DNA from: Bacteroidia bacterium
GTDB taxonomy: Bacteria; Bacteroidota; Bacteroidia; Chitinophagales; UBA2359
Reading direction: 5' to 3'
Assembly: GCA_030427245.1 (NCBI GenBank)
Contig: JAUHXA010000019.1
Span: 1-64,000, forward strand
DNA: 64,000 nt
Part shown: positions 14,691 through 25,582 of the stretch, piece after piece
How positions within the stretch are numbered: the stretch's first letter is position 1
Layout of the letters: each line of letters starts with the position of its first letter
Made by a program: the position numbers and the translations under genes
Notes under the pieces: model-generated
The model's input: only the letters and a program-made list of their open reading frames with translations
The model's database searches: none
What the model was told of the DNA's origin: nothing

Positions 14691-14698
14691 TATATTTG
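14691..14698 (+). promoter_or_regulatory. Candidate -7 box for kinase 1
   Basis: TATATTTG matches TAnnTTTG and ends 48 bases before the chosen ATG of kinase 1. The same octamer is found at almost the same distance before kinase 2. No good -33 TTG is seen. Confidence 0.45.
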
Positions 14699-14746
14699 TT
14701 ACTATTCTCATTCAAGTCCAAAACCAATTACAATTCTCCAAGCCCC

Positions 14747-16888
14747 ATGAACTTCCAAGACCGCTACCAATACAATCCCAAATTCGACTACTTAGGTGGA
14801 GGCGCATTCGCCGATGTATTCAAAGCCTACGATACATTATTAGACCGAACAGTAGCCTTAAAATTCTACAAAGGAACAGGCAGCCAATACGATGTCTTGA
14901 ACGAAATCAAAACCGTCATCAAACAAGACCTCACCCATCCCAACCTCATCCGCTACTACGATGCAGCTATGGTTGAAATGACCGACCGTTTTGGGCGCAC
15001 GACCCAAAACCAAGTCGGCATCATAGAGTATGCCAATGGAAAGGAATTCTTGGGAACAAGTGGCGATTTGAACGCCTTTATGAAAGTGCTAAAACCCGAT
15101 AAAGCCACCTTCAAAAACACCATTCGAGAGATACTCCAAGGCTTAGACTATTTGGGAAAACGCAGCATCATCCACCGAGACCTAAAGCCTGCCAACATCC
15201 TCCTACACAAAACGACAGAAGGAAAATGGACCGCCAAAATCGCCGACTTTGGACTCAGCAAAAGCCTCGACAGCTCTGCCACCTCCACTCAAGGCATGAA
15301 AGGCACCATCGAATACATGGCTCCCGAACAACTCTACCGCAAAAAATACGCATTGGAGGAAGGCATACAAGCCAATGCCGACCTATGGGCTTTTGGCACC
15401 ATCCTCTACGAACTGTTTGTCCAACACATTCCCGTAGGCAGACGCAGCGAAGGCAGTACGGTAGAGGAAATCATGGAAAACCTCGACCTTTTTGAACCCA
15501 ATCGTTTGGTACTCCAAGACATTCCAATGCCTTATCGTGGCATGATACAAGCCTGTTTGGTCAAATTTCCTCAACATCGGGTGCAAACAGCAGAACAATT
15601 GTTGGAAATGTTGGATACACCTATTGCAGAAAACACCTTGAAGCCAGTTCCCTCCAAACCAACACCAACACCTTCGCCGAGTCCCCAACCCTCGCCATCT
15701 CCCCCAAAACCAACACCACAAAAAAAATGGCTACTGGGCATAGCCCTACTCGTACTAATGGGCATAGGTGGTTTATGGACAAGTGGTTTTTTTTCCGATT
15801 CCGATTCCAATCTCAATCCCAATCCAGCAATAGACAGCACCGAAATAGGAGCAGCTAAGAGAATAGAAGATTCCCTAAGACAAATACAACTGCAAAAAGA
15901 ACAAGATTCTATCCAAACAGCAGAGGAAGCTGCAATCGCCAAAGAAAATCAATTCAAAGAACTCTTGGCAGATGCCAATACAGCCTATGTAAGCGAAAAC
16001 TACAAAACCGCCAAAGAAAAATACACCGAAGCCCTCCAACTACAACCTAAAAACAAAGAAGCCAAAGGAGGCTTGGACAAAACCAAAGAAAAACTAAAAC
16101 CCCAACCTGCTCCAAGTCAAGAAACCACCACGACCTCTACAAAACCTACTCAAACAACCCCTACACCTGAACCCAAACTCCCAACTCCCATCCAAATCCT
16201 CGAACAAAACATGGTCAGAGTCCCTGGAGGCAGCTTCAATAGGGGCTGCGACGAACAAAGAGATGGTGACTGTCAAGATGATGAAAAACCCGTCCACAGC
16301 GTCACCCTCAGCACCTTTGAAATCGGACGCTACGAAATCACACAAGCACAATGGCAAGCCGTCATGGGTGACAATCCCAGTCACTTCAAAGACTGTGGTA
16401 GCAACTGTCCCGTTGAAAACGTCTCTTGGAACGACATCCAAACCTTCCTCCAAAAATTGAATAAAATGACAGGCAAAACCTATCGCCTCCCAACCGAAGC
16501 CGAATGGGAATTTGCCGCAAGAGGTGGCAACAGCAGTCAAGGCTACCGATATTCGGGCAGCAATAATTTGGACAAGGTGGCTTGGTATGGTTATGAAAAA
16601 GCTGGTAAAACAACACATCCCGTTGGAGAAAAAAACAAAAACGAACTGGGCTTATACGATATGAGTGGCAATGTTTGGGAATGGTGCGCTGATTGGTACG
16701 ATGAAAATTATTATGCCAACAGCCCTTCAAAAAATCCGCGCGGCGCTTCTTCGGGTACTTCTTGGGTTCTTCGCGGGGGTTCTTGGTTCCTCAATTCCCT
16801 CTACTGCCGCTCCGCTGTTCGCTTCTGGTACTATCCTTCCCTTACGGGCAGCTACGACGTCGGGTTTCGTATTTCCAGGACTTTGTAG
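14747..16888 (+). CDS. Transmembrane Ser/Thr kinase with C-terminal FGE/SUMF1-like domain, kinase 1
   Basis: The 713-residue protein starts at the ATG that opens the kinase domain; the frame's earlier codons are promoter DNA. Its Hanks-type kinase domain has the glycine loop LGGGAFADVF (16-25), Lys39 (VALKF), HRDLKPAN (143-150), DFG 167-169 and APE 192-194, so it looks active. A Pro-rich linker (300-325) leads to one membrane helix (about 328-345), a charged TPR-like segment and an FGE-sulfatase/SUMF1-like domain (about 485-713) with GGSFNRGC, LPTEAEWEFAARGG and NVWEWCADWY. The cysteine pairs suggest an extracytoplasmic, disulfide-bonded ectodomain. The last 35 residues look like a DGR variable region. 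I infer a receptor-like kinase: kinase inside, lectin-fold sensor outside. Confidence 0.88.
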   Translation: MNFQDRYQYNPKFDYLGGGAFADVFKAYDTLLDRTVALKFYKGTGSQYDVLNEIKTVIKQDLTHPNLIRYYDAAMVEMTDRFGRTTQNQVGIIEYANGKEFLGTSGDLNAFMKVLKPDKATFKNTIREILQGLDYLGKRSIIHRDLKPANILLHKTTEGKWTAKIADFGLSKSLDSSATSTQGMKGTIEYMAPEQLYRKKYALEEGIQANADLWAFGTILYELFVQHIPVGRRSEGSTVEEIMENLDLFEPNRLVLQDIPMPYRGMIQACLVKFPQHRVQTAEQLLEMLDTPIAENTLKPVPSKPTPTPSPSPQPSPSPPKPTPQKKWLLGIALLVLMGIGGLWTSGFFSDSDSNLNPNPAIDSTEIGAAKRIEDSLRQIQLQKEQDSIQTAEEAAIAKENQFKELLADANTAYVSENYKTAKEKYTEALQLQPKNKEAKGGLDKTKEKLKPQPAPSQETTTTSTKPTQTTPTPEPKLPTPIQILEQNMVRVPGGSFNRGCDEQRDGDCQDDEKPVHSVTLSTFEIGRYEITQAQWQAVMGDNPSHFKDCGSNCPVENVSWNDIQTFLQKLNKMTGKTYRLPTEAEWEFAARGGNSSQGYRYSGSNNLDKVAWYGYEKAGKTTHPVGEKNKNELGLYDMSGNVWEWCADWYDENYYANSPSKNPRGASSGTSWVLRGGSWFLNSLYCRSAVRFWYYPSLTGSYDVGFRISRTL
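16199..16588 (+). repeat. 390-base block shared with kinase 3
   Basis: By eye this block differs from 24208-24597 at a single base (AGA to AAA), with no indels. It encodes the first two thirds of the FGE-like domain. The kinase domains of the two genes are far more diverged. Confidence 0.9.
16787..16861 (+). other. Putative DGR variable region in kinase 1 (VR1)
   Basis: This 25-codon segment follows RGGSW and precedes GFRISRTL at the C-terminus. Compared with the equivalent segment of kinase 3, 14 of 24 aligned codons differ, always at positions 1 and/or 2, while the third base is constant. The codons are almost all NNC, NNT or NNG, as expected if a template rich in AAC/AAT was mutated at adenines. 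Position at the end of a C-type-lectin/FGE-fold domain is the standard DGR target site. Confidence 0.7.
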
Positions 16889-17011: not shown

Positions 17012-19030
17012 ATGAAACAGACCATTTTTGGAAAATTTGAATACGACCCTAACCTTCAAGCAGACCAATTAGGTGAAGGAGCATTCGCCAAAGTATTTAG
17101 AGCTTATGACAAAGTATTGAAGGACTATGTAGCTCTAAAATTTTTCACTGTCAATACTAGCAGCAAATACGACATCATTGGAGAAATCACCAATATGCGA
17201 GATATCGTTCATCCCAATTTGATTCGCTATTACGATGCCAATGTCCTTGAGCAAAAAACCGCTTATGGAACTACCGAAGAAATCCAAGTAGGCATTATGG
17301 AATACGCCAATCATGGGAATTTGGGCAAATGGATGGAAAAAGTTCGCAAAAATTTGGTGGGAGACCAAAAACAAAAGTTTCAATACATTGCCGAAGTGAT
17401 TCGTCCATTGATAGAAGGCACTTTAAAAGGTTTGGCAGAATTACACCGACACAAAATCTTGCATCGAGACATCAAACCCGCTAACATTCTCCTTCACAAA
17501 GACGAAAAAACCAAACAACTCATTCCCAAAATTGCCGATTTTGGATTGAGCAAACAAACCGACAGTTCCGCTACCTCTACCCTCGGTTTGAAAGGTACAA
17601 TCGAGTACATGGCTCCCGAACAAATATTCAGAAAGGAATATGGAGACGGCAAAGCCTATGCCTTTAATACCGATTTATGGGCTTTTGGTGTGGTCTTACA
17701 TGAACTCTTTGCCAATAGTGTTCCCTTTGGCAGAAGAAGCGAAGGCAGTTCGGTAGAAGAAATTATGGAAAATCTTCGCCTCTTTGAACCCAACAAACTC
17801 ATAATGCGGAACATACCCGCTCCCTATCAACAAATGATTCAAGCCTGTTTGGTCAAACACCGCAAAGACAGAATACAAACCACAAAAGAATTATTGGACA
17901 TGCTTCATGGAGGCGAGATGCCCGTTTATGTAAAAATAGATGCTTCTCCAACTTCTAAAACTCCCTCTACTCCTGTAGTCGACCTTGAAGTAACAGAAGA
18001 AATAAAAAGACCCAAATTAGAGCCCACTCCCACACCTAAAAAACCTCCCATATCCAAACCCCAACAAAAGTCCAAACCAAAAATCAAGCCCCAAGTAATC
18101 ATTGCCAATTTATTCAAATCATCTCCCCTCTCCAAGATTCCTCGCAAATATTTACTGCCTTTGTTACTTGTTCTCCTTGTAGGAGGCGGACTATGGGCCA
18201 GTGGTTTTTTTTCTACTAATCCAAAACCTACTGATGACCTTCCTATTCCAATTATTGACACATCTGCTATTATAAAAAAGAAGGAAGAAATTCAAAGACA
18301 AGCCAAACTATACCAACAACTTCCTACGGTACTCAAAGAATTAGTGGATAATATGATTCCAGTCAAAGGTGGTTCTTTTGAAATGGGCTGTACACGTCAA
18401 TCCGCTGATTGTGAGCCAGACGAGATTCCAAGCCATACTGTTCAAATCAGTTCGTTTGAAATGAGTAAATATGAAATTACATGGGAACAATGGAAAGCCG
18501 TAACAAGTGAGAATAAAAAATGCCATCCAACTTCCTGTGAAAAGTGCCCTATTAGCTGTATCAGTTGGACTCAAACGCAAGGATTTTTAAAAACCCTCAA
18601 TCAAATCACAGGTAAGAAATTTCGCTTACCTACAGAAACAGAGTGGGAATATGCTGCCAAGGGAGGCAACAAAAATTCAACCTATGTATTTGCTGGAAGT
18701 GATGATATTGATAAAGTCGCATGGCACTTAGGTAATAGTCAAAAACAAATCCATGAAGTAGGAAGCAAAGCTCCCAATAGTCTAGGTTTATACGATATGA
18801 CAGGCAATGTTTGGGAATGGTGCCACGACTGGTACGATGAAGATTATTACAGTACCAGTAAGAATAAAGACCCGAAAGGCCCTTCTGATGGTATAGAAAA
18901 GGTTATCCGTGGAGGTTCGTCCTTTTCCCACTCAAAATTCAGCAATTTAACCAATCGACATAAAAACCGGTCTCATCACAAAAGCGAAGAAAATGCTGAT
19001 TTAGGTTTCCGCATAGTCAGGTCTTTATAA
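17012..19030 (+). CDS. Transmembrane Ser/Thr kinase with C-terminal FGE/SUMF1-like domain, kinase 2
   Basis: The 672-residue paralogue has the same plan as kinase 1. The kinase domain carries the glycine loop LGEGAFAKVF (20-29), Lys43, HRDIKPAN (151-158) and DFG (176-178). A Lys/Pro-rich linker, one membrane helix (about 382-398) and an FGE-like domain (about 447-672) follow, the last with KGGSFEMGC, LPTETEWEYAAKGG, GNVWEWCHDWY and IRGGSSF. Extra cysteines (CHPTSCEKCPISC) fit an oxidising compartment. Unlike kinases 1 and 3, its C-terminal segment is A/T-rich with ordinary codons and shows no variable-region signature. The MORN-caspase gene starts 18 bases downstream, so kinase and protease are almost certainly co-transcribed. 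Confidence 0.88.
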   Translation: MKQTIFGKFEYDPNLQADQLGEGAFAKVFRAYDKVLKDYVALKFFTVNTSSKYDIIGEITNMRDIVHPNLIRYYDANVLEQKTAYGTTEEIQVGIMEYANHGNLGKWMEKVRKNLVGDQKQKFQYIAEVIRPLIEGTLKGLAELHRHKILHRDIKPANILLHKDEKTKQLIPKIADFGLSKQTDSSATSTLGLKGTIEYMAPEQIFRKEYGDGKAYAFNTDLWAFGVVLHELFANSVPFGRRSEGSSVEEIMENLRLFEPNKLIMRNIPAPYQQMIQACLVKHRKDRIQTTKELLDMLHGGEMPVYVKIDASPTSKTPSTPVVDLEVTEEIKRPKLEPTPTPKKPPISKPQQKSKPKIKPQVIIANLFKSSPLSKIPRKYLLPLLLVLLVGGGLWASGFFSTNPKPTDDLPIPIIDTSAIIKKKEEIQRQAKLYQQLPTVLKELVDNMIPVKGGSFEMGCTRQSADCEPDEIPSHTVQISSFEMSKYEITWEQWKAVTSENKKCHPTSCEKCPISCISWTQTQGFLKTLNQITGKKFRLPTETEWEYAAKGGNKNSTYVFAGSDDIDKVAWHLGNSQKQIHEVGSKAPNSLGLYDMTGNVWEWCHDWYDEDYYSTSKNKDPKGPSDGIEKVIRGGSSFSHSKFSNLTNRHKNRSHHKSEENADLGFRIVRSL

Positions 19031-19048: not shown

Positions 19049-20272
19049 ATGAACAATTATTTCCAGCGAATCTTTTTGATAACCTCATTAATCCTCACGT
19101 CATTAAGTTCTCTCTCCCTCCAAGCCCAATGTATCTTTGGCGATTGTCAAAACGGCTTTGGTACGTATCGTTATGAAAGCGGCAATCAGTTTACAGGCAA
19201 TTGGGAAAATGCACAGCGTAAAAAAGGCGTGTTTCGTTATGCCAATGGCGACCGCTATGAAGGCACTTTCCAAAACAACAAACGGCACGGAAAAGGAGTC
19301 TTTCAATATGCCAAAAGTGGAAACCGTTTTGAAGGAACTTACCACCAAGGCAAAAAACAACAGGGTACTTTCTATTACGCTGATGGCAGTCAGTACAATG
19401 GTCATTTTTTGGAGGACAAAAAAGAAGGATGGGGCAGACTCCAAACCAAAAAAGGAGTCGTCTATGAAGGCTATTGGTTTGCTGATGCCTTTTTAGGTGC
19501 TAACAGCAACGATTTACACGAAGATACCTATGCCGTATTGGTAGGCGTTGCAGATTATCAAAATCCCAAATTTTCGCTCCAAATATCAGACAAAGATGCC
19601 ATTGCCTTTTACCACTTTTTGAAGAGCGAAGCTGGTGGCTATGTTCCCGAAAGTCACATTCAACTGCTGACCAATGAACAAGCAACAGAAGCCAATATTT
19701 TGGCAGCATTGGAACAACAATTCAGCAAAGCAAGCCCAAAAGATAAAATCCTGTTTTTCTTTTCGGGTCATGGAGACAGTGGTTATTTTCTCCCTTACGA
19801 CTTCAATCCTTATGCTTCCAACTCCCACACTTTGAAGCACCAAGACATCAAAAAAGCCTTTAAAAAAAGTGCTGCAAAAACCAAATTCTGTTTGGCAGAT
19901 GCCTGTTATTCAGGTAGTATGCGTACCAAACACGCTGCAACAAACAATACCACTTCAACAAAAGCTTTAGAGAAAGAGCTAAACACAAAGCTCTACAAGC
20001 AATTTTTTGAAATCAACGAAGGAGTTGTTGCCTTTATGTCTTCAAAGGCACAAGAACCCTCTTACGAAAACCACCAAATTGGCATAAGTGCATTTACCCA
20101 TGCACTCTTAGAAGGCATGAAAGGACAGGGAGATAATGACAAGAACAGAATTTTGACAATCGAAGAACTCTATGTCTATGTGCGGAAACGAATAAAACAA
20201 TTGACTCCAGAGGTACAATCCCCCGTTTTGTTCGGAAAATTTTCAATGAAAATGCCTGTAGCTTTGTTTTGA
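19049..20272 (+). CDS. MORN-repeat caspase-like protease (peptidase C14 family)
   Basis: The 407-residue protein has a signal peptide (residues 1-27, ending SLQAQ) and five or so MORN repeats (about 35-145, e.g. GTFQNNKRHGKGVF, YNGHFLEDKKEGWGRL). A caspase/metacaspase-like p20 domain (about 160-400) follows. The catalytic dyad is visible: His241 in FSGHGDSG and Cys286 in DACYSGS. Caspase-like proteases cut proteins after specific, usually basic, residues and are often death or regulatory effectors. The signal peptide implies action outside the cytoplasm, where the kinases' FGE-like domains would also be. It lies 18 bases after kinase 2, suggesting that kinase signalling controls it, or that the kinase senses its products. 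The target is unknown. Confidence 0.85.
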   Translation: MNNYFQRIFLITSLILTSLSSLSLQAQCIFGDCQNGFGTYRYESGNQFTGNWENAQRKKGVFRYANGDRYEGTFQNNKRHGKGVFQYAKSGNRFEGTYHQGKKQQGTFYYADGSQYNGHFLEDKKEGWGRLQTKKGVVYEGYWFADAFLGANSNDLHEDTYAVLVGVADYQNPKFSLQISDKDAIAFYHFLKSEAGGYVPESHIQLLTNEQATEANILAALEQQFSKASPKDKILFFFSGHGDSGYFLPYDFNPYASNSHTLKHQDIKKAFKKSAAKTKFCLADACYSGSMRTKHAATNNTTSTKALEKELNTKLYKQFFEINEGVVAFMSSKAQEPSYENHQIGISAFTHALLEGMKGQGDNDKNRILTIEELYVYVRKRIKQLTPEVQSPVLFGKFSMKMPVALF

Positions 20273-22428: not shown

Positions 22429-22998
22429 ATGAGAGTTAAATGCGGCACATGCAAACAACTGATTGTCTTTGATGAAGGCAAATTGAACTTGGATTTCCCT
22501 CAAATCAAATGCCCCAAATGCAAGGCAATAAATAAGTTGATGTTAAGCGAAAAGCAAAAACAAGCCATCAAACAAAAGCCCCCTCCAAAGCCAAAAGAAA
22601 TCACTGTTTTTGGGACAATTTTGGTAGTCGAAACAGATGGTCCACCCTCTCAATCATTTGAATTGCGAAAAGGAATCAACACCATTGGGCGGCTTTCTTC
22701 CAGTTTCCAAGCCGATGTTGCCATCGAAACCACAGATATGCACATGAGCCGCAAACATGCTATCATTGAAGTTTTTAAAATCAAAAACCAAAACAGTTGG
22801 GGCTTTGTACTCTGCAATTTTGAAAACAAAACCCCTATTCAATTGAATGATGACTGCAAGATGAGTTTTTGGGATGAGATATATTTGAAAGACGGAGATA
22901 CAATAAGCATTGGAGAAAGCTGCTTGCTTTTTAAAGTAGCAGAAAATCTGCGAAATGTGGTGCAAGTAGATAGCACTTTGATACAGGGAAACCAATAA
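22429..22998 (+). CDS. Zinc-ribbon plus FHA domain protein
   Basis: The 189-residue cytosolic protein opens with a MJ0042-type zinc ribbon (VKCGTCKQLIVF...IKCPKCKAIN, residues 3-36). A linker follows, then an FHA domain (about 65-170) with the diagnostic INTIGR, MHMSRKHAII and a C-terminal KDGDTISIGES strand. FHA domains bind phosphothreonine peptides, so it is a probable reader of the neighbouring kinases' autophosphorylation or of a shared substrate. It starts 14 bases after the acidic protein and ends 9 bases before kinase 3, so these genes form one tight operon. It has the same parts as the disrupted FHA gene but in opposite order (ribbon first), so it is a partial functional backup rather than a simple copy. 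Confidence 0.8.
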   Translation: MRVKCGTCKQLIVFDEGKLNLDFPQIKCPKCKAINKLMLSEKQKQAIKQKPPPKPKEITVFGTILVVETDGPPSQSFELRKGINTIGRLSSSFQADVAIETTDMHMSRKHAIIEVFKIKNQNSWGFVLCNFENKTPIQLNDDCKMSFWDEIYLKDGDTISIGESCLLFKVAENLRNVVQVDSTLIQGNQ

Positions 22999-23007
22999 AT
23001 CAAACCC

Positions 23008-24813
23008 ATGCAAAAAAAATTATTCAACCGCTACGAATACGACCCCCAAAAAGACCTCTTAGGCAAAGGAGGTTTCGCCAAAGTATTCAAAGCGTTCGAT
23101 ACAGAACGCAACCGCTACGTTGCCTTGAAGTTCTACAAAGGTGCCTCCAACGAAAAGTACGACATCATTGGCGAAATCAACCGAATGGAAGACATTCGCC
23201 ACCCCAATCTGGTAAAATACTACGATGCCCGAAGCATCAACCATATTGGAGCAGATGGCACCGAAACCAAAGAACAAATTGGCATCATGGAATATGCCAA
23301 CAACGGCAATTTGACGGCTTGGACTGCCCAACTCCACCGCAAAATAGCCCATATCCGCCCCACTGCTCAAAAATACCCATACATTGCAGCAGCCATTCGA
23401 CCTTTGGCAAAAGGCATTCTCAGTGGATTGGCATTCCTTCACCAAAACAATATCCTTCACCGCGACATCAAACCCGCCAACATTCTGCTACACCAAGAAG
23501 GGGAACAGTTGATTCCCAAAATTGCCGATTTTGGTCTGAGCAAAGAAATCACGAGTTCTCTTTCGTCTATTCATGGTCTCAAAGGCACGATTGAATATAT
23601 GGCTCCCGAACAACTCTATCCCCAAAAATACGCATACAACAAAAAAATACAGCCCAATGCCGATTTATGGGCTTTTGGCATCATCCTCTATGAGTTGTTT
23701 GCCCAACACATTCCCGTAGGCAGACGCAGTGAAGGTAGTACGATTCAGGAAATCATGGAAAATCTCGACCTTTTTGATGCCAATTGTTTGATCGCCTTGC
23801 AAGACATCCCAATGCCTTATCGGGCAATGATACAAGCCTGTCTCGTCAAATTCCCCCAACAACGCATACAAACAGCCGATGAATTATTGAAGCTATTGGA
23901 GGAAGGAAAAATACCTCATTATATCCGCCTACAAACAAACTCCAATGAAGATACAATAACAGATATTCCAATTCCAATTCCAATTCCAAAGGCTAAGAAA
24001 AAAGAGATTCAGAAATCACCTCCAATTCACAAAGCCAAGCAAACAGTTCGCAAGCCCTCTCAAGAACATCAAAACTCCTCTAAATCAAAAAAATACCTCC
24101 CAATCCTTGCAGTATTTTTGTTGTTTGCCTTCATAGGCATTGGCTTGTGGAACAGCAGTCTTTTTAAGACCGAACCAACCATTGTACTCTCCCCTACACT
24201 CCAAGAACTCGAACAAAACATGGTCAAAGTCCCTGGAGGCAGCTTCAATAGGGGCTGCGACGAACAAAGAGATGGTGACTGTCAAGATGATGAAAAACCC
24301 GTCCACAGCGTCACCCTCAGCACCTTTGAAATCGGACGCTACGAAATCACACAAGCACAATGGCAAGCCGTCATGGGTGACAATCCCAGTCACTTCAAAG
24401 ACTGTGGTAGCAACTGTCCCGTTGAAAACGTCTCTTGGAACGACATCCAAACCTTCCTCCAAAAATTGAATAAAATGACAGGCAAAACCTATCGCCTCCC
24501 AACCGAAGCCGAATGGGAATTTGCCGCAAGAGGTGGCAACAGCAGTCAAGGCTACCGATATTCGGGCAGCAATAATTTGGACAAGGTGGCTTGGTATTGG
24601 GAAAATGCAAACGGCAAAACACATCCTGTTGGAGGCAAAATCAAAAATGAATTGGGGTTATATGATATGTCTGGTAATGTGAGGGAATGGTGTGCTGATG
24701 GATATGATGAAAATTATTATGCCAACAGCCCTTCAAAAAATCCGCGCGGTACTTCTCGGGTTCTTCGCGGGGGTTCTTGGGTCATCCATCTCCCTCAACT
24801 GCGGCTCCGCTAA
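23008..24813 (+). CDS. Transmembrane Ser/Thr kinase with frameshifted FGE/SUMF1-like domain, kinase 3
   Basis: The kinase domain is complete: glycine loop LGKGGFAKVF (19-28), Lys41, HRDIKPAN (151-158) and DFG (174-176). It is followed by a basic linker, one membrane helix (about 358-380) and an FGE-like domain (from about 405) whose first 390 bases match kinase 1. After RGGSW the frame reads VIHLPQLRLR and stops. One base fewer in this stretch would give an ending with CGSANR and GFRISRTL, matching kinase 1, with a stop at 24878-24880. The protein as read therefore lacks about 30 C-terminal residues, including the last strand of the fold. NVREWCADGY replaces NVWEWCADWY. The cause may be a real indel in the variable region or a sequencing error. 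Confidence 0.85.
   Translation: MQKKLFNRYEYDPQKDLLGKGGFAKVFKAFDTERNRYVALKFYKGASNEKYDIIGEINRMEDIRHPNLVKYYDARSINHIGADGTETKEQIGIMEYANNGNLTAWTAQLHRKIAHIRPTAQKYPYIAAAIRPLAKGILSGLAFLHQNNILHRDIKPANILLHQEGEQLIPKIADFGLSKEITSSLSSIHGLKGTIEYMAPEQLYPQKYAYNKKIQPNADLWAFGIILYELFAQHIPVGRRSEGSTIQEIMENLDLFDANCLIALQDIPMPYRAMIQACLVKFPQQRIQTADELLKLLEEGKIPHYIRLQTNSNEDTITDIPIPIPIPKAKKKEIQKSPPIHKAKQTVRKPSQEHQNSSKSKKYLPILAVFLLFAFIGIGLWNSSLFKTEPTIVLSPTLQELEQNMVKVPGGSFNRGCDEQRDGDCQDDEKPVHSVTLSTFEIGRYEITQAQWQAVMGDNPSHFKDCGSNCPVENVSWNDIQTFLQKLNKMTGKTYRLPTEAEWEFAARGGNSSQGYRYSGSNNLDKVAWYWENANGKTHPVGGKIKNELGLYDMSGNVREWCADGYDENYYANSPSKNPRGTSRVLRGGSWVIHLPQLRLR
24208..24597 (+). repeat. 390-base block shared with kinase 1
   Basis: This is the counterpart of 16199-16588, with a single base difference by visual comparison. 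It encodes the GGSFNRGC...LPTEAEWEFAARGG part of the FGE-like domain. The homology ends abruptly at the TAT codon after KVAW. Confidence 0.9.
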
Positions 24814-24853
24814 TCGCTACAGGCTCCTTCCTTCCCTTACGTGCCTCAACTTC
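24781..24853 (+). other. Putative DGR variable region in kinase 3 (VR2), with +1 indel
   Basis: It lies between the shared flanks (upstream CTTCGCGGGGGTTCTTGG, downstream GGGTTTCGTATTTCCAGGAC). Relative to VR1 it has 14 changed codons, one missing codon before GGG, and one extra base in the first four codons. Apart from that extra base, third codon positions agree with VR1 throughout. Confidence 0.7.
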
Positions 24854-24955: not shown

Positions 24956-25012
24956 TTTCGAAATGGGGTATGACCGTTCAAACGTCGGCGAACCGTAAAG
25001 GTGTCGCCGAGT

Positions 25013-25133
25013 TTTCACTCACAAGCAAAACCTTGTCAACAGTCGCAGACTTTGACAACGGTTAGGCGATAACCATTCAACTGTTGACGAGGTTTGCAAC
25101 CGTCGTCAAAGTTTCTCTCCTACAAACAAAAAA
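25013..25133. repeat. REPIN-like repeat, copy 1
   Basis: The 121-base unit is built of successive hairpins: TTGTCAA...TTGACAA, GGTTA...TAACC and a bulged TTGACGAGGTT...AACCGTCGTCAA. It is identical to 25462-25582 except for one base (G versus A in GTTTGCAACC/GTTTACAACC). Its end supplies the last codons and stop of the small minus-strand ORF. Confidence 0.85.
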
Positions 25134-25461: not shown

Positions 25462-25582
25462 TTTCACTCACAAGCAAAACCTTGTCAACAGTCGCAGACT
25501 TTGACAACGGTTAGGCGATAACCATTCAACTGTTGACGAGGTTTACAACCGTCGTCAAAGTTTCTCTCCTACAAACAAAAAA
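25462..25582. repeat. REPIN-like repeat, copy 2
   Basis: Second copy of the 121-base unit, same orientation as copy 1 and 449 bases away. It lies directly beside the terminator of the giant gene. A 35-base fragment of the same family is at 13066-13100. Confidence 0.85.

Follow-up and report, generated by a model that had tools for sequence, protein, structure and literature searches.

The closest described systems are the kinase targets of diversity-generating retroelements (DGRs) in cyanobacteria, in which an N-terminal Hanks-type kinase is joined to a C-terminal C-type-lectin domain with a variable region (VR) at the 3' end of the gene (Vallota-Eastman 2020, PMC7517822). Cyanobacterial DGR targets often lie far from the reverse transcriptase (RT), are mostly predicted to be cytosolic and, where remote, were assigned by more than 50% identity to the template repeat (TR) (PMC7517822). 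In Thiohalocapsa PB-PSB1, DGR targets likewise include a protein kinase domain and DGRs act in trans, and the genome contains incomplete DGR loci, remote targets, and DGR 7 VRs for which it holds no perfect TR match (PNAS 2024, PMC10907252). In Treponema denticola the targets are proteins of the FGE type, lipoprotein signals are predicted for several of them, and target genes survive as remnants in strains that lack a complete DGR (PMC4891356). Kinase receptors are thus already known as DGR targets (PMC7517822, PMC10907252); what is distinctive in the Bacteroidia bacterium described here is the predicted single-pass topology of the target and the multi-stage decay of the retroelements.

The window that we analyzed is a 64,000-nucleotide stretch (contig JAUHXA010000019.1, positions 1 to 64,000) of assembly GCA_030427245.1, and its features are collected in table 1. 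Kinase 1 matches the Pfam models Pkinase (8.9e-41) and FGE-sulfatase (PF03781; 4.6e-53). By sequence, the closest solved structure to its tail is the Treponema DGR variable protein TvpA (2y3c; 5.4e-36), and its variable region, VR1, aligns to the C-terminal segment of TvpA and ends 8 codons ahead of the stop codon. The tail is in frame and conserves the framework RGGSW...CRSA.R....P...GFR; an AlphaFold model of this region (pLDDT 36) was too poor for use. The single transmembrane (TM) segment leads us to place the FGE tail outside the cytoplasm, so that kinase 1 is predicted to be a single-pass Ser/Thr receptor kinase composed of a kinase domain, one TM helix, and an extracytoplasmic domain with putative ligand binding. 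This domain composition suggests a sensor that would meet its ligand outside the cell and respond by phosphorylation inside. The single-pass Ser/Thr kinase target proposed in an earlier, sequence-only reading of this DNA is upheld by the Pfam domains and hydropathy, and the FGE/C-type-lectin fold with a C-terminal VR, which it also proposed, by the PF03781 and TvpA matches. Kinase 1 resembles the cyanobacterial DGR kinases in the grafting of a Hanks-type kinase to a C-type-lectin domain with a terminal VR, but differs from them in its single-pass topology, its host, and the failure to find its cognate TR (PMC7517822). With the TvpA DGR of T. denticola it shares an FGE-type C-lectin fold and a terminal VR (PMC4891356; 2y3c), whereas the T. 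denticola targets are not kinases (PMC4891356). Diversification in Thiohalocapsa PB-PSB1 is documented by population data (PMC10907252), whereas VR1 is known here from one assembly.

Table 1. Features of the kinase locus in the window, with the genomic copies of the associated hairpin
Feature	Position	Strand	Description	Basis
Kinase 1	14696..16888	+	Ser/Thr kinase - TM - linker - FGE/C-type-lectin tail; 730 aa counted from TTG, ATG at 14747 the likelier start	Pfam
TM of kinase 1, LLGIALLVLMGIGGLWTSG	15731..15787	+	Sole strongly hydrophobic segment	Kyte-Doolittle scan
FGE-sulfatase (C-type-lectin fold) domain of kinase 1	16205..16873	+		Pfam and structure-relative match
Identical 370-bp block	16219..16588	+	Equals 24228-24597 in kinase 3	
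VR1 5' constant flank	16754..16786	+	1 difference from kinase 3	
VR1 proper	16787..16861	+	25 codons, 24 alignable to kinase 3	
VR1 3' constant flank	16862..16887	+	No difference from kinase 3	
Kinase 2	17012..19030	+	Architecture as kinase 1	
MORN-caspase gene	19049-20272		Immediately after kinase 2	
FHA-domain gene	22429-22998		Immediately before kinase 3	
Kinase 3	23008..24813	+	Architecture as kinase 1; ORF shortened by a frameshift within its VR	
VR3	24781..24853	+	Kinase 3 homologue of VR1, read out of frame	
Extra base in VR3 relative to VR1	24790..24790	+		
Hairpin copy in the window	24980-25010			
121-bp direct repeat, two copies	25013-25133; 25462-25582			
Giant ORF	25665-63962	-	12,765 aa	
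Hairpin copies elsewhere in the genome (G000)	C18:30571-30605; C89:167-201; C26:84147-84181; C148:17511-17539			

The additional base in VR3 puts kinase 3 out of frame and brings in its stop at 24813. Kinase 3 also lacks one codon that is GGC in kinase 1, and a 12-bp indel distinguishes the two genes directly upstream of the VR; the sequence-only reading had omitted all three differences. The FGE-sulfatase domains of kinases 1 and 3 are nearly identical, and the fully identical 370-bp block may reflect a recent duplication or gene conversion. We looked for an AAY-derived codon pattern in the tail of kinase 2 and found none. With the kinases that they adjoin, the MORN-caspase gene and the FHA-domain gene possibly form a phospho-signaling or cell-death cluster, and the neighborhood of kinase 2, MORN-caspase, and FHA genes resembles the signaling and conflict-type DGR-target loci of multicellular bacteria (PMC10907252). 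Between kinase 3 and the giant ORF, a direct repeat is present in two intergenic copies that are 99% identical to each other and that each contain an inverted repeat of 16 bp. The giant ORF itself contains long runs of repeated modules and has a sorting-signal-like C terminus.

Alignment of the kinase 1 and kinase 3 tails reveals changes in 14 of the 24 alignable codons. These comprise 18 nucleotide differences, 13 at codon position 1, 5 at position 2, and none at position 3, in a comparison of one gene pair whose alignment sets aside one base and one codon. In the region of about 110 bp upstream (120 bp counted from 16619), the same two genes differ by 4, 3, and 10 nucleotides at the three positions, which is the usual third-position bias (Fisher P = 1e-4 for the contrast with the VR). 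The differences are also concentrated in space, affecting 18 of 72 sites in the VR versus 3 of 106 in the flanks (P = 1.6e-5). Our realignment therefore agrees with the sequence-only reading on 14 of 24 codons changed at positions 1 and 2 only and on near-identical flanks; the extent that it gave, 16729-16888, does contain the variable stretch but also takes in both constant flanks.

The draft genome (7.58 Mb in 187 contigs, estimated to be 100% complete) encodes two RTs, on contigs C131 and C26. A genome-wide check for a DGR reverse transcriptase thus had a positive outcome: the C131 enzyme is of the DGR type, with the motifs LPIGNLTSQ and YVDD, and it is adjoined by Avd (PF22296, 6.9e-18; NCBIfam DivGenRetAVD, 91.1 bits vs a cut-off of 80), a TR, and a VR-bearing FGE target of 1168 aa, which together form a complete cassette. 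The VR of this target is changed relative to its own TR at 16 of 38 A sites and at 2 of 91 non-A sites; the C131 DGR has diversified its own target. The RT, TR, and target of this cassette all lie on the - strand and Avd on the opposite one (+; L006 7775-8113), and the locus is flanked by a TIR-iSTAND gene and a MoxR-like AAA ATPase (L006 12333-13775 and 4621-5547), as in conflict-system DGR loci. The C26 enzyme was rejected as a second DGR RT, as it matches retron type XIII and carries the motif QGACTSP.

Contig C18 encodes a caspase-FGE target with a VR, a TR, and a truncated HRDC-type accessory ORF, and no RT. The truncated ORF has its homologue in the HRDC-type accessory protein that relatives encode, an accessory that they have in common with the T. 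denticola TvpA DGR (PMC4891356). Members of the same family have the locus order target, HRDC protein, RT, and TR, and approximately the last 40 codons of an RT persist on C18 directly ahead of the TR; based on this C-terminal remnant and the order in relatives, we interpret the C18 locus as a DGR with a deleted RT. In the stretch L047 5876-6430, the RT was lost by internal deletion, and the HRDC accessory is truncated near the RT remnant. The C18 VR is changed relative to its TR at 14 of 37 A sites and 2 of 85 non-A sites.

When VR1 and VR3 are laid codon by codon over the C131 and C18 TRs, 17 of their 18 differences fall on template adenines (P = 5.6e-7 and 2.7e-7 for the two TRs, in which 32 or 31 of the 72 sites are A). 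The sole difference off a template adenine is at codon 8 (CGC/GGC), the one column that escapes the sequence-only claim that template adenines explain them all. The adenine test does not rely solely on the third-position argument and strongly supports DGR mutagenesis, and we interpret the VR1/VR3 substitutions as the footprint of a DGR; the DGR origin proposed earlier is thereby borne out by both the codon-position counts and the adenines of homologous TRs.

DGR copying carries non-adenine bases over faithfully. VR1 mismatches the C131 TR at 25 of 79 non-adenine sites and the C18 TR at 22 of 78, and the full range for VR1 and VR3 against both TRs is 22-26 of ~79 (~30%), compared with 2 of 85-91 in true TR/VR pairs. 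On the basis of these mismatches, neither TR wrote VR1, and the C131 DGR, which is like VR1 in its FGE fold and AAY-coded variable positions, represents a separate lineage. A TR with the kinase 1 and kinase 3 flanks (GGTTCTTCGCGGGGGTTCTTGG and GGGTTTCGTATTTCCAGG) and AAY codons was not found in the draft assembly by four types of search, which used VR1 itself, the inferred TR (E <= 10), the TR core pattern (up to 3 mismatches), and a TR-like peptide. Above chance level, the hits of the inferred-TR search were confined to VR1, VR3, and the two TRs that mismatch; five weak matches (L031, L032, L033, L035, and L036) were inspected and look like chance. The TR start had no exact match in 84,980 GTDB genomes, nor did the VR1 5' flank in viral contigs, although records of this genome may be missing from both collections. 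Since no cognate TR was found in the draft assembly, we file VR1 as an orphan VR, outside any working DGR. The sequence-only reading had envisaged action in trans on VR1, which the TRs in this genome do not bear out, and a somatically variable ectodomain, which is unsupported; the evidence leans to a fossil.

We consider it likely that VR1 is a genuine DGR variable region that is now an orphan and most probably frozen. The 3' ends of kinases 1 and 3 would have received AAC/AAT-rich sequence from a past DGR with a cognate template, miscopied specifically at adenines. In this way the exposed residues for ligand binding in an FGE/C-type-lectin domain would have been altered, and one predicted TM helix links this domain to the Ser/Thr kinase in the cytoplasm. 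The cognate template would subsequently have been lost, a frameshift would have broken kinase 3, and kinase 1 would have retained one in-frame variant. The DGR that survives, on C131, retains its RT and Avd and has diversified the target next to it, with a TR mismatched to VR1. We infer both the loss of the cognate TR and the fixed state of VR1, which looks frozen rather than actively varying because the template that would rewrite it is absent from the assembly. Counted against this reading is the kinase 1 tail, which is in frame with a conserved framework, as in a live target.

The in-frame VR1 also fits a rival reading, in which VR1 would still undergo diversification in trans, with the C131 RT and Avd using a cognate TR that escaped assembly, either in a gap or on a replicon that was not assembled. 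The genome does have an intact RT and Avd, action in trans on remote targets is reported for Thiohalocapsa (PMC10907252) and cyanobacteria (PMC7517822), and a TR of ~110 bp could be missing from a draft split into 187 contigs. However, the completeness estimate is 100%, VR3 is broken, and the C131 RT is paired with a TR of its own that does not match; moreover, at the one junction that was checked the contigs share exactly 127 bp, pointing to an assembly k of ~127, and at this k a TR that shares only short exact stretches with the VRs should not break the assembly. We consider continued diversification unlikely, and we are similarly doubtful of its fuller form, in which kinase 1 would be a live hypervariable transmembrane receptor kinase with an ectodomain diversified in trans by the C131 RT, within a kinase/caspase-like protease/FHA cluster, and with a TR missing from the assembly. 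Improbable, in our view, is an origin without any DGR, in which strong positive selection would have acted on a ligand-binding loop after duplication while gene conversion homogenized the flanks: the 370-bp block is consistent with recent homogenization of kinases 1 and 3, and relatives have kinase-FGE genes whose similar tails lack a matching TR, but selection alone does not predict a complete lack of third-position changes together with the coincidence of 17 of the 18 changes with adenines of independent TRs, and it would not be expected to act in this manner on VR3, which is out of frame, although the frameshift could be a late event. Writing of VR1 and VR3 in trans by the C131 or C18 TR, which share their fold, codon framework, and genome, is scarcely credible, as it is refuted by the non-adenine mismatches unless many synonymous changes accumulated afterward, a possibility contradicted by the identity of kinases 1 and 3 at third positions.

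The junction that informed the estimate of k joins the end of contig C74 to the start of contig C89, where FGE genes form a tandem pair. The tails of this pair differ by 10, 9, and 0 changes at the three codon positions versus 9, 9, and 36 upstream, and a TR-peptide search of the genome returned no TR for them. Mapped on the C131 TR codons, the changes show no significant coincidence (P = 0.11), with 19 codons and a different spacing. We interpret these genes, from their substitution pattern, as a second orphan VR pair of the same kind as VR1/VR3. Kinase-FGE genes with VR-like tails are present in relatives as well. For the tail in relative G001, no matching TR was found in the G001 genome; a TR-like peptide search among 20 relatives identified NNN-type TRs only in G002, G003, and G011, and the G011 TR does not match the G011 kinase tail.

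A hairpin, GTCGGCGAACC(G)TAAAGGTGTCGCCGAC, is clearly recognizable only some five times in the 7.6 Mb of the genome (table 1). Three of these copies follow a DGR VR or TR at a downstream distance of ~105-145 bp (kinase 3, the C18 TR, and the C74 VR), an association noted post hoc; the hairpin may be either a mobile repeat or a component of the DGR locus.

The kinase locus extends DGR-written kinase sensors to a Bacteroidota genome. This one genome presents several stages of DGR decay, with one intact system, one without an RT, and two VR pairs without a TR, and with these stages side by side in one organism it becomes possible to test there how DGR targets arise and are lost. Recovery of a template would make kinase 1 a bacterial receptor kinase whose ectodomain can be programmed.
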